56,288 bases of DNA, taken from positions 1 through 56,288 of the forward strand of contig JAKFVC010000038.1 of the NCBI GenBank assembly GCA_021732415.1. Direction: 5' to 3'. The notes beneath the pieces are model-generated. The model was not told where the DNA came from and ran no database searches. It saw only the letters and a program-made list of their open reading frames with translations. The position numbers and the translations under genes are program-made. Within the stretch, counting starts at the first letter, position 1. Every line of letters begins with the position of its first letter. Positions 2,823-53,124 of the stretch are shown one piece after another. Source of the stretch: Planctomycetaceae bacterium. GTDB taxonomy: Bacteria > Planctomycetota > Planctomycetia > Planctomycetales > Planctomycetaceae.

Positions 2823-3175
2823 GCTTTGTAGCCTGACTCTCCAGAGTCGGGCGCGCTGCAACCCGGCTCAAGTGTCATCAATCACTACGCCTTCGATCGG
2901 GTGCCACTGGCTATGCCAGTGCGAGTGGTCTTTCGGTGCCCTATCCGGCAAAGCACTGGCATAGCCAGTGGCACCCAGAATCTAGCCTATTGAAGCATAC
3001 TGCGGTTGCCTTGCGGGCCCCAAATGGTCGACTGCTCGCAGTCAAATTTTGCCCGACTCTGGAGAGTCAGGCTACCGAGGAATTCGTCCCTGATTTTCTC
3101 CGTGTGAAGTTTTCGCTATGATGCGGCTGAGTATTGGGCCACCTCCTTCTGTCCGCTTTTCGGCGTCTGCCTTTC
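2823..3175. other. Intergenic region with two nested inverted repeats
   Basis: No credible gene. Outer arms 2829-2852 and 3051-3074 are perfect 24-base complements (TAGCCTGACTCTCC..., itself holding the hairpin GACTCTccAGAGTC). Inner arms 2899-2922 and 2953-2976 are perfect 24-base complements of an unrelated sequence (GGGTGCCACTGGCTATGCC...). Confidence 0.85.
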
Positions 3176-9656: not shown

Positions 9657-9685
9657 TGGCATTCTTTGGGGCTGCGAGTGCCGAC

Positions 9686-9779
9686 TTATGTCCCTTATGT
9701 CCTTTCCGTCCTTTATGTTCCTTTCCTACTCCTCTTAATGCAAAGGACGGAAAGGACGGAAAGGACATAAGGGACATAA
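9686..9779. repeat. Inverted repeat of reiterated AAGGACGG/ATAAGGGACATAA units
   Basis: Left arm 9686-9714 (TTATGTCCCTTATGTCC...) pairs with right arm 9742-9779, which contains one extra GGAAAGGAC unit. Arms are built from short tandem units, like those at 13127 and 26179 (CATAAGTCCCAT units). Confidence 0.85.
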
Positions 9780-11703: not shown

Positions 11704-12059
11704 GATCAGGCGAGCCGGGCAGCGTAAGCCCCCCGGATTCTTTTTCATTCAGATTTGGAAACACAGAGGCACAGAGGACACAGAGAAATGCAACGACTCT
11801 GTGTCCTCTGTGCCTCTGTGTTTTGATTTCTTCGCTACCAAACCGACGTTGACACAGATGGAACGAAGAATCCTGGGGCTTACCGGCTAGTTGATTTAAT
11901 CAAGTCCCAATCGCGTATTTTCGTTTTCGCGGCAGTTGCTACCCGTTGAACATAGGTTTGAACGCTTAAACCGGATCACCGTTCACATTAAGTATACTGA
12001 CATTATGTTTACATTCTGATTAAATCAACAGCCCGTTACGCCGCCGGGCTCGCCTGATT
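11704..12059. repeat. Multi-layer nested inverted repeats
   Basis: Four arm pairs. A: 11704-11727 with 12036-12059 (24 bases, 3 mismatches). Inside A, B: 11725-11743 with 11866-11883 (one indel). Inside B, C: 11761-11784 with 11798-11821 (perfect, CAGAGGCACAGAGGACACAG type). Beside B but inside A, D: 11890-11902 with 12017-12029 (perfect, GTTGATTTAATCA). No gene is visible in this stretch. Confidence 0.85.
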
Positions 12060-25269: not shown

Positions 25270-25402
25270 TGGGAGGGCAAGGCTCCCGCCGAGCCGAAAG
25301 CGACCGAATGTCGGAGTCCGCCGGAGGCCGGGTTGTTGAAATGCCTCCGGCGGACGCCGAGCTAAAGCTCGTCTTAGGCTCGGCGGGAGCCTCGCCCTCC
25401 CA
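25270..25402. repeat. Nested inverted repeats, two families
   Basis: Outer arms 25270-25295 and 25377-25402 belong to the GGGAGGGcaAGGCTCC family (one or two mismatches). Inner arms 25316-25328 and 25343-25355 are a perfect 13-base repeat, GTCCGCCGGAGGC. Confidence 0.85.
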
Positions 25403-35971: not shown

Positions 35972-36102
35972 TAGCCTGACTCTCTGAGTCGGGAGCATTA
36001 TACATCCAAGCACCCGACTCGGAGAGTCAGGCTACAGGACCCGACTCAGAGAGTCGGGCTACGGGGCGAAATCCTGGGCCGACTCTGGAGAGTCAGGCTA
36101 CC
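35972..36102. repeat. Cluster of four TAGCCTGACTCTC elements
   Basis: Four copies in alternating orientation (35972-35996, about 36010-36033, 36036-36060, 36081-36102), each with GACTCtnnAGAGTC-type self-pairing. Lies between divergent genes (34801 minus, 36156 plus). Same family as 2829, 3051, 51832 and 51957. Confidence 0.85.
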
Positions 36103-50909: not shown

Positions 50910-51749
50910 CTAAGACACAAAATACCCACATTCGCGCAAGGTCATCACGCTATCAGCCACCCGTTGCTGATAGACCGCCAGCGGCAGATCGCTTTCGCCT
51001 TCGATCCCATCCACGTGAATCGAAAACGGAGCGGGAAAAGCCATATCCCGCATGATCTGGAAGACCCGCATGAAATCGACCGCTCCGCCGTATCCCAACG
51101 CGGGAAAATACCAGTAGTCGAATTCGCCCAGGGAATCACTCAGGTTTAAATGCCGCAAATAGGGGGCGACCTTCAACAAAGCGATCTCCAGCACCGGCTC
51201 TTCGTTGTAATAGAACAACGCCCCCGTATCGAAGTTCAGCCAGATCTGCGGATGCTGCACTTCCCGCATGAGTTCCAGCATGCCACGATGGCTGCGACAG
51301 ACGCCGGGCTGCATGTCGAGACAATAGGTCAGGCCCAGTTTTTGGGCCTGGTCACCCAACTCTCGCAGCGCGGATATCAAACTGCTGCGCTGCTCGGAGG
51401 ATTCCAATTCTCCCCCATTGCCAATAACCAGTTTGACTCCAAGCTGAGCGGCGATTTCCATCTTCCGCTTCAGTACCTGCCGCGCCGATTTGAAGAGCGG
51501 GTTGCCCGTATCAATCTGGCAGGCACTCAGTTGTACGCCATGATCTTTGACAAATTGTAGAACGTGCTGGACCGCTTTCTCTGTCGCGTTTGACGTGATG
51601 AGCGGCTCTTCGCCATAGCGTGTGGGTTGCCCCTGCGTCAGGATTGGCAATTCCAGGTAGTGCAATCCGATTTGCCGTAAATGAAGAATCGCAGCCTGGG
51701 CACCGAACGGTCCGTACGAAGATGCCGAACAAGCGATAGTAGCGGGCAT
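50910..51749 (-). CDS. Sugar phosphate isomerase/epimerase-type TIM barrel
   Basis: 279 residues, AP-endonuclease-2 fold. Barrel strand motifs: LHYLELPILTQG, GVQLSACQIDTGNPLF, LVIGNGGELESS, LTYCLDMQPGVCRS, IWLNFDTGALFYYNEE, LRHLNLSDSLGEFDYWY and PAPFSIHVDGIEGES. The metal Glu/Asp/His set appears largely present. It shares fold but little sequence with the exported isomerase at 12145, and lacks a signal peptide, so it acts in the cytoplasm. Substrate unknown. ATG 51749 is chosen because the longer frame to 52064 crosses the repeat cluster. Confidence 0.83.
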   Translation of the reverse strand: MPATIACSASSYGPFGAQAAILHLRQIGLHYLELPILTQGQPTRYGEEPLITSNATEKAVQHVLQFVKDHGVQLSACQIDTGNPLFKSARQVLKRKMEIAAQLGVKLVIGNGGELESSEQRSSLISALRELGDQAQKLGLTYCLDMQPGVCRSHRGMLELMREVQHPQIWLNFDTGALFYYNEEPVLEIALLKVAPYLRHLNLSDSLGEFDYWYFPALGYGGAVDFMRVFQIMRDMAFPAPFSIHVDGIEGESDLPLAVYQQRVADSVMTLRECGYFVS

Positions 51750-51795
51750 GACTGGCAACTGTGTCGGGTGAGATAAGAACTGGTCACACTTGGTG

Positions 51796-52021
51796 TATCG
51801 TGGGACGGGTCTCCAGGCCCGTCCGTCCCGTAGCCTGACTCTCCAGAGTCGGGCGATGCATTTCATAAAAGGACACAACGAACCAAAAGGACATCTGCAG
51901 AGACTTCCCTTTTGTTCCTTCGGTCCTTTTAGTCTCTTACGCACCATCTGCAATTCGTCGCCCGACTCTGGAGAGTCAGGCTGCAAGTGGACGGACGGGC
52001 CTGGAGACCCGTCCCACGATA
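51796..52021. repeat. Three-layer nested inverted repeats
   Basis: Outer arms 51796-51828 and 51989-52021: 33 bases, perfect. Middle arms 51832-51856 and 51957-51981: 25 bases, perfect, the TAGCCTGACTCTCC family. Inner arms near 51866-51892 and 51910-51935: imperfect, AAAAGGAC-type. Occupies almost all of the gap between two minus-strand genes. Confidence 0.93.
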
Positions 52022-52038
52022 TCGCTTGCGATCTCGGA

Positions 52039-53124
52039 TTAGACTGTCGCCTGCAACGCGGCACTCTTCGACTCGATGCTGGCCATCAATTCGTTCCACG
52101 ACTTGACGAACGACTTCGCCCCTTCATCCTGGAGTTGATTGGCCAGGGCATCAATGTCGATTCCCGCCTTCGCGAAACTGTTGAGTACCTCTTCGCAATC
52201 ACTGCCGTCCAGCGGCACCAGAGCACCACGGTCACCGTGATCGGCGAAGGCCTTGAGCGTTCCTTCAGGCATCGTATTGATGGTGTTCGCGGCCGCCAGC
52301 GAGGTGATATACATGACGTCCGAGGCCTTCGGATCTTTCGTTCCCGTACTGGCAAACAAGAGTCGCTGGGGCTGTCCGCCGGCCTGTTTGATCTGCTGCG
52401 AACGCGACGACGCCAGCAACGCGAGAGAGGCTTTGTGAGCCCGCTTGGCGACAGCAATCCCGAGTTGATTCCGCAGAGCCTCGGGTACCTTGTTCGCGAC
52501 GGCGACATCCCAACGGCTGATAAACAACGAGGCCACGCTGCGGACATCCGCTGGCAGACCTGCAGCGATCCGGCGTTCAATCCCACGCAGATAGGCTTCC
52601 GCCGCGGCGAGATACTGCTCGCGCGAAAAGAGCAGCGTCACATTGATGGGGATCCCCGCAAAGATCGAGTCTTCAATGGCCGGCAAACCTTCCGGTGTAC
52701 CAGGAATCTTGATGAACAGATTCGGACGCGCTGCCCGCGCATGCAAATCCTTGGCTGCCGCAACGGTCCCCGCCGTGTCGTGAGCCAGCAACGGCGAGAC
52801 CTCCAGCGAGACCCAGCCGTCAATACCCTTCGTCTGATCATAGATGGGCCGAAACTGATCGGCGGCGCGGCGCAGATCTTCAATCGCTAGATCGAAGAAC
52901 AGATCCTCACCCGACTTGCCGGCTTTGAGCTTCTCGGAAATCGATTCGTCGTAGTCGGTGCTGTCTTTGACGGCCTTCGCAAAGATCGAAGGATTCGAAG
53001 TCAGGCCGGTCACGGATAATTCGGTGACGTAGCGTTTCAGGGTGCCGCTATCCAGGAGATTGCGGCTGATATCATCGAGCCAAAGGCTTTGCCCCAGATC
53101 GTGTAGTTGTTGTGTCGCTTTCAT
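52039..53124 (-). CDS. tal: Transaldolase
   Basis: Moves dihydroxyacetone from sedoheptulose 7-phosphate to glyceraldehyde 3-phosphate in the non-oxidative pentose phosphate pathway. 361 residues, the larger bacterial type. N-terminal LGQSLWLDDISRNLL, GLTSNPSIFAKAV, then Schiff-base Lys139 in NLFIKIPGTPEG, and the following INVTLLFSREQY, SVASLFISRWD, LLFASTGTKDP motifs. Start ATG 53124 follows AATGAAGAGGGAAT, a good ribosome site. Neighbouring isomerase may share an unidentified sugar pathway, but the repeat cluster between them argues against one operon. Confidence 0.94.
   Translation of the reverse strand: MKATQQLHDLGQSLWLDDISRNLLDSGTLKRYVTELSVTGLTSNPSIFAKAVKDSTDYDESISEKLKAGKSGEDLFFDLAIEDLRRAADQFRPIYDQTKGIDGWVSLEVSPLLAHDTAGTVAAAKDLHARAARPNLFIKIPGTPEGLPAIEDSIFAGIPINVTLLFSREQYLAAAEAYLRGIERRIAAGLPADVRSVASLFISRWDVAVANKVPEALRNQLGIAVAKRAHKASLALLASSRSQQIKQAGGQPQRLLFASTGTKDPKASDVMYITSLAAANTINTMPEGTLKAFADHGDRGALVPLDGSDCEEVLNSFAKAGIDIDALANQLQDEGAKSFVKSWNELMASIESKSAALQATV

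Follow-up and report, generated by a model that had tools for sequence, protein, structure and literature searches.

A three-layered stack of REPIN-like hairpins in a planctomycete genome rich in nested inverted repeats

REPINs are inverted doublets of REP sequences that are predicted to fold as a single hairpin, are extragenic, have arms more conserved than their spacer and are linked to RAYT genes; spacer length and the capacity to form a hairpin are stressed, with 71 bp between the ends of GI, and clusters are described as tandem repeats (Bertels and Rainey, 2011, PMC3116915). REPs with a GTAG head that form outward-facing dimers are present in Planctomycetes (Di Nocera et al., 2013, PMC3733652). 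The nearest precedent for nesting is found in brief remarks of the same paper, by which longer palindromes are the insertion sites of REP dimers in A. variabilis and H. neapolitanus; REP-free copies of those host palindromes were not found in the two species (PMC3733652). REP palindromes are insertion hot spots for full IS elements (Tobes and Pareja, 2006, PMC1525189). The GTAG head guides the cleavage of single-stranded REP in vitro by TnpA-REP enzymes, which came from E. coli, S. maltophilia and Marinomonas, and a REP changed to GTGG is cut at CC according to one passage and at CA according to the sentence before it (PMC8266576). These papers are represented here by excerpts, to which the statements and comparisons refer; in the part of the open-licence literature on REPIN/RAYT, nested palindromes and planctomycete repeats that was covered, no report of multilayer nests at the frequency described below was found.

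The window (the whole stretch of DNA analysed, 56,288 nucleotides) is contig C42 of the draft genome of an uncultured planctomycete, 9,868,874 bases in 350 contigs. At positions 51796-52021 it holds three nested inverted repeats, a stack whose outer and middle arms belong to families that are called A and B here. As far as the excerpts go, pairs of inverted A-REPs resemble REPINs (PMC3116915) in their inverted doublets, single-hairpin fold, extragenic site, arms better conserved than the spacer and RAYT link; they differ in that the trimmed interiors range from 43 to 339 bp and have differing contents, often with other hairpin families, and in that side-by-side neighbours are scarce. Because the spacer varies in length and contents, where a roughly fixed length is typical of REPINs, the pairs are called REPIN-like. 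Compared with the GTAG REP dimers (PMC3733652), a single A/B-like arm family serves as host to 12 others (by a loose clustering in which A is merged with B-like arms), nests reach depth two and a host is seen both empty and filled; compared with the IS elements that target REPs (PMC1525189), small hairpin repeats and not full IS elements lie inside other hairpin repeats. The head of A is GTGG, with a C before it in 95% of 110 flanks; since either T (68%) or C (29%) mostly stands before that C, the fit to the excerpted account of TnpA-REP cleavage (PMC8266576) is weak. The stack is regarded as a multilayer variant of RAYT-linked REPINs, of which the REPINs are known and the multilayer form is new. 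A genome in which different families of hairpins are nested far more often than adjacent is a natural record of how REPs and REPINs choose their targets, and it predicts the loop as the target.

Architecture of the stack and the A and B families

The outer arms (51796-51828 and 51989-52021) are 33 nt long and 100% complementary by the inverted-repeat search of the window. The left one is an A-REP on the plus strand, with its head GTGG at 51800, its core at 51800-51824 and TATC before the head; the right one is an inverted A-REP on the minus strand (core 51993-52017), its head outward. The middle arms extend over 34 nt at 91% (51832-51865 and 51949-51982) and include a perfect 25-nt part at 51832-51856 and 51958-51982. 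They correspond to a B-REP on the plus strand (51830-51856, head GTAG at 51830) and an inverted B-REP on the minus strand (51957-51984), whose core (51960-51984) has one mismatch and whose head, GCAG, points outward. The third layer, an imperfect hairpin of the AAAAGGAC type at 51866-51931, is weak: its 31-nt arms (51866-51896 and 51901-51931) are 77% complementary, and it gave weak matches to a GTCCTTT-type family (best E = 0.006; window 9685-9779, L119:6052-6140 and L122:8019-8047). The preliminary description had reported perfect outer arms of 33 bases, perfect middle arms of 25 bases and imperfect third-layer arms; all are real, and the left middle arm had been placed correctly but the right one was one base off. 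It had also called the arm families unrelated. Their letters do differ overall, but A and B share a common plan, a GTRG head plus a palindrome, and both have CTCCAG in the loop; by these letters they may be distantly related within a single REP superfamily.

Folded as single-stranded DNA, the stretch 51790-52027 reached -94.9 kcal/mol, as against -32.7 ± 3.8 kcal/mol for 200 dinucleotide shuffles (z = -16.3), none of which was as good; the inverted, heads-out REPs thus fold as one hairpin. The stack occupies a 289-bp gap between two genes on the minus strand, a transaldolase gene at 52039-53124 (PF00923, 256 bits; PRK03343, 457.7 bits, above the cut-off of 367), the stop of which lies 17 bp from the outer arm, and a gene for a xylose-isomerase-like TIM-barrel protein at 50910-51749 (PF01261, 80.3 bits, cut-off 31.1), the start of which lies 46 bp from the outer arm.

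Over the whole own genome, 288 + 297 = 585 copies of the A core and 98 + 93 = 191 copies of the B core were found at up to 3 mismatches, and the reversed pattern gave 0 in both cases. The arms are thus not confined to the locus and belong to dispersed families, both of which have the features of a REP unit (a short palindrome, a GTRG head, high copy number and intergenic position). The recurrence of the middle family within the window, noticed at the outset, was borne out by B at 2828-2852/3051-3075 and at 36077-36101. Three of the 13 genomes searched have A (585 copies in the own genome, 117 in G003 and 10 in G002); the searches of G001 and of nine relatives at the family or class level found none.

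A sample of 1.215 Mb of the own genome, defined below, contained 55 heads-out A pairs, two of which each share 40 bp with a called gene (simple custom gene caller). Their interiors match DNA elsewhere in the sample at E ≤ 1e-4 in 42 cases and match nothing in 13. The flank of A is conserved as GTATC followed by GTGG, and abutting direct repeats of at least 4 bp were found at 1 of the 55 pairs. A MITE of a DDE transposase was rejected on the rarity of such target-site duplications, which together with the conserved flank fits a Y1/HUH enzyme rather than a DDE one; the flank may simply belong to the element. The gaps that hold A pairs were tandem, divergent and convergent in 34, 10 and 9 cases (53 of the 55 pairs scored), against 447, 132 and 105 for all gaps of at least 60 bp, and as the two sets resemble each other, A pairs have no preference for gene ends.

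Nested and side-by-side inverted repeats

Inverted repeats were collected, with a minimum arm length of 16 bp and a minimum arm identity of 85%, from 60 stretches (the window and L075-L133; 1.215 of 9.87 Mb, 12%). Many of these were picked from contigs with listed A or B matches, which may inflate the densities but should matter less for the nest-to-neighbour ratio. About one long inverted repeat was found per 2.3 kb, and the arms fell into 64 clusters. A chance origin was rejected, because an order-2 Markov control made for 20 of the 60 stretches gave 5 long inverted repeats in 431 kb, far below the 537 real ones in 1,215 kb, and because the reversed-pattern controls gave 0. The sample includes the wordy hairpins CCACGGAGACACGGAG, CGCAAAGGCGCCAAGGCGCAAAG and CCACGAATCACACGAAT, which presumably have similar counterparts in many phyla.

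From 577 inverted repeats listed, 538 with arms having at least three other copies in the sample were kept; removal of overlaps left 501, and 488 remained after 13 that lay mostly within called genes (simple custom gene caller) had been dropped. The spacer of another element enclosed 112 of the 488, 10 of them at depth two, whereas sequential random insertion gave 25.9 ± 5.0 nested elements and a maximum of 41 in 1000 runs. Four nests lie in the window, at 2828-3075, 11705-12058, 25270-25402 and the stack itself. The set was then collapsed by dropping every inner-outer combination that held more than half of the inner family (an arbitrary rule for 'obligate' composites) and all same-family nests, which left 420 elements with 44 nests in 26 family combinations; as A and B-like arms cluster together, the A(B)A nest of the window is excluded from the 44.

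Whether families nest beyond random placement, a point raised in the preliminary description, depends on the null. The 44 nests exceed the 25.0 ± 4.8 (maximum 44) of a uniform null, but the excess is absent under a null limited to gaps that are already occupied (52.8 ± 6.8). Neighbours within 200 bp numbered 16, against 86.7 expected under the uniform null (minimum 61 of 1000 runs) and 148.8 under the occupied-gap null (minimum 125), and the count stayed at 16 without the gene mask. The strong signal is this scarcity of side-by-side neighbours. Since neighbours are scarce under both nulls and the nest count is high or ordinary depending on the null, elements that share a gap are mostly concentric, an arrangement that does not fit the mosaic of adjacent REPs that makes up a BIME (16 neighbours in the sample against 87 or 149). 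Uncollapsed counts of nested and side-by-side elements were 117 and 19 in the own sample, 8 and 3 in G003 (151 kb) and 2 and 1 in G002 (93 kb), those of the two relatives coming from smaller pieces, some of them chosen for A pairs.

Copies of the host family AGGCGAGCC were found without an inner hairpin (L102:4187-4274, L096:3309, L101:8129 and, in a short form, L081:14633) and with a central ACACAGAGG hairpin (L081:16671, L104, L110, L127 and L132); the filled hosts may be one lineage. Two hosts were aligned, AGGCGAGCC and GGGAGGG, and both have copies with and copies lacking the inner hairpin; that of GGGAGGG is confined to its host (19/19) and may therefore be part of one element in two forms. 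Among the matches listed, an in-silico search for empty loops gave mainly arm-driven ones. Outer arms are not clearly younger than inner ones: the mutual identity was 91.9% for ACCTTCTGTT hairpins in hosts (n = 16, ungapped columns) and 95.3% for A arms.

The locus in congeners and the RAYT-like genes

The stack is absent at this site in the two congeners compared, G002 and G003, and the intact three-layered structure was not found there. Past the same transaldolase stop in G003 there is a small hairpin (GGACTGCGGTGAT..ATCACCGCAGTCC) similar to the TTTGGACTGCGG family, and G002 has a lone REP-like piece at the site; the gap has thus held other repeats in the relatives. Both keep a common spacer that is missing in the window, which dates the arrival of the stack to the loss of that spacer or later. 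The decay of a single ancestral palindrome, set against repeated insertion in the preliminary description, was rejected because G002 and G003 are without such a structure and have a different, common spacer. An assembly artefact was rejected because two A composites lie at the same site in another MAG, G003 (L122_757 and L113_3456).

Ten of the 55 A pairs could be compared with fetched pieces of G003 or G002. Element-free sites were seen at L113_6325 (17 bp in G002), L128_1830 (40 unrelated bp in G003) and L113_3456 (6 bp in G002, with 42 bp of the own flank unaligned). A clearly related element occupies the same site in G003 at L122_757 and L113_3456, and another hairpin, interior or half-interior was found in the same place at L113_6325, L122_16428, L132_17351 and L122_13897; at L113_1309 and L128_15181 the relatives carry other DNA. 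At these ten sites the comparison of orthologues caught no case of insertion into an A loop, and the orthologues of the window nests at 2828 and 11705 are split over contigs in G002 and G003. The gap of L122 13897-14097 holds an A pair in the own genome, a GTAGCCACGCTCGCCAGAGCG-type hairpin in G003 (L170) and a two-layered hairpin in G002 (L171), which suggests that the gap either is a hot spot or turns over rapidly.

Thirteen places in the own genome carry Y1_Tnp (IS200/RAYT-like). When A and B were looked for in the fetched flanks of all 13, with as many as 5 mismatches allowed, A-REPs were found at one place (L013) and a B-REP at one (L002); B-like hairpins lie by L005, L012 and L286. The RAYT-like ORF of L013 (263 aa, L013:1066-1857) lies between A-REPs at 1077 (plus) and 1870 (minus), both with 0 mismatches. 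RAYT-like genes, akin to the RAYT/REP-type transposase named at the outset as something to look for, are thus present, one of them inside a perfect A pair. The ORF contains the letters PNHVHVI, which we take to be an HUH-type motif. Its protein matched NF047646 (REP-associated tyrosine transposase) at E = 3.4e-16 and 59.4 bits, below the cut-off of 80, and PF01797 with a score of 21, below the cut-off of 23; the genome search, with in-frame neighbours, had scored 23. A-REPs were absent from the fetched flanks of its homologues, of which L286 is from the own genome (65% identical) and L281-L284 and L287 are from G001, G002, G003 and G007; among these pieces only the L013 gene itself (L280) has them. 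The best match to the L013 protein in G003, an assembly 87% complete, has 38% identity despite the 117 A copies of that genome.

Readings of the stack

The reading that we favour, and hold to be rather probable, is a stack of REPIN-like hairpins in which guests land in loops and the composites then spread whole. The outer A-REP pair would bound an element that is non-autonomous and that a RAYT/IS200-like Y1 transposase most likely mobilises in trans, and anything between two heads-out A-REPs would travel along. New hairpins, here the B-REPIN with the third hairpin, would favour the loop or spacer of a hairpin already present as their landing site. Elements would thus pile up concentrically and not side by side, after which the composite A(B(..)B)A could spread as a single unit. 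We infer that a transposase moves these elements and that the steps took this order at this locus; the targeting of loops, perhaps those of extruded, single-stranded hairpins, would be the cause of nesting, and the loop may be offered as a single strand in replication. The element-free sites and the dispersed copies are, at the level of sequence comparison, consistent with mobilisation by a RAYT. The variable contents between A arms suggest that ends of the REPIN type can carry other DNA, which would widen their effects on genomes. The repeated insertion of one element into the loop of another, proposed in the preliminary description, is partly supported, by the dispersed families, by nesting far in excess of adjacency, by the two congeners without the stack and by the RAYT-like genes, one of them within an A pair, but no insertion of B into A was caught between relatives. 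Further points that count against the favoured reading are the loss of the nest excess under the occupied-gap null, the scores of the L013 protein below curated cut-offs, the homologues with no A-REPs in their flanks and the distant best match in G003.

The A-outside-B junction was found 13 times, at 10 loci, over the whole genome (reversed control 0). A(B)A is complete at 8 of these; the other two, C49 and C103, lie by contig ends or are without a second A arm in the fetched piece. In the copies found, the A core and the B head are 0-12 nt apart, in a pattern that allowed up to 30 nt between the motifs, and such short junctions, which are unexpected if B lands anywhere in the loop, speak against the favoured reading. 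One common core is shared by 6 of the 8 complete copies, so that composites probably multiply as units. Other cores occupy the same A(B)A frame in the window (AAAAGGAC) and in C140, where the core has a GGATAGG / CTGTCAG..CTGACAG centre and, by eye, a third layer. The A(B)A copies match the composite of L128 at 76-88%, and the similarity stops at or near the outer edges of the A arms. The nest at 51796-52021 may go back to a single composite that was moved as a whole, with a different centre, and not to a fresh local insertion.

Carried further, to loops as general landing pads, the favoured reading becomes tentative: in this lineage, most later hairpins that enter an occupied gap would enter an earlier loop, a gap would tend to hold one concentric stack, and finished stacks would move and trade cores via their arms. 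If this were true, stacks would record the order of activity of mobile hairpin families, and RAYT-type transposition would have a natural target in the loop.

It is also possible, if unlikely, that A(B)A and a handful of further composites each had a single origin, by whatever route, and moved as units, and that nests are common only through their multiplication, with no preference for loops. The common core of six copies and the match to the L128 composite agree with such an origin, as do inner families found mostly in one host (ACCTTCTGTT hairpins, for example, with 15 of 22 in the A-type family) and similar composites that recur at L113 (three), L114/L117 and L105/L129. It does not account for the 44 nests in 26 combinations that survive collapsing, for three kinds of core in the same A(B)A frame (the window, C140 and the other six) or for the scarcity of neighbours.

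The exchange of cores, by recombination or gene conversion through near-identical arms, would swap REPIN interiors and yield nests without transposition into loops. As the whole explanation it appears somewhat more doubtful still, and as an addition to the favoured mechanism it is a serious one. The element at L122_16428 combines a left arm of the A type with a different interior, and keeps an A' right arm (GCTCGGACGG..CCTACG) like that of the G003 element at the same site; at L113_6325 and L132_17351 the interior or half-interior differs from that in G003. In three orthologous pairs, with gaps left out, differences amounted to 6/174 bp in arms, 81/424 in interiors and 188/1200 in flanks. Against this, L122_16428 is the one clear hybrid and may reflect an independent insertion at the same site, the conservation of arms may reflect selection, and exchange accounts for altered cores but leaves both the first nest and the lack of neighbours unexplained.

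A functional, immobile terminator or mRNA 3' stabiliser of the transaldolase gene is very improbable: a position 17 bp past the stop and a very stable fold would suit such a role, and REPs act on mRNA ends in some bacteria, but no T-run is seen by eye beside either arm, A pairs have neither an orientation bias nor a preference for gene ends, and the two congeners are without the stack, though G003 has its small hairpin past the same stop, so that the structure is, as first remarked, not a simple terminator.

Other arrangements in the same material can be set beside the stack as separate observations. The right A arm of the L113_3456 orthologue in G003 (L167, G003:C917) is interrupted by a palindromic insertion (TTGGGATTACCCTAC ... 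GTAGGGTAATCCCAA) with an apparent 12-bp direct repeat (GGCCAAGAGACC, by eye), for which it seems to belong to a different, duplication-making class of element. The perfect B pair at 2828-3075 of the window encloses a GGGTGCCACTGGC hairpin (2899-2976) and so forms the outside of a further nest; the G002 matches that flank its two sides lie on different contigs. The nest at 11705-12058 consists of two units, 11705-11883 and 11879-12056, which are separate in many copies and joined in few (C52 at 93% and C223 at 85%).
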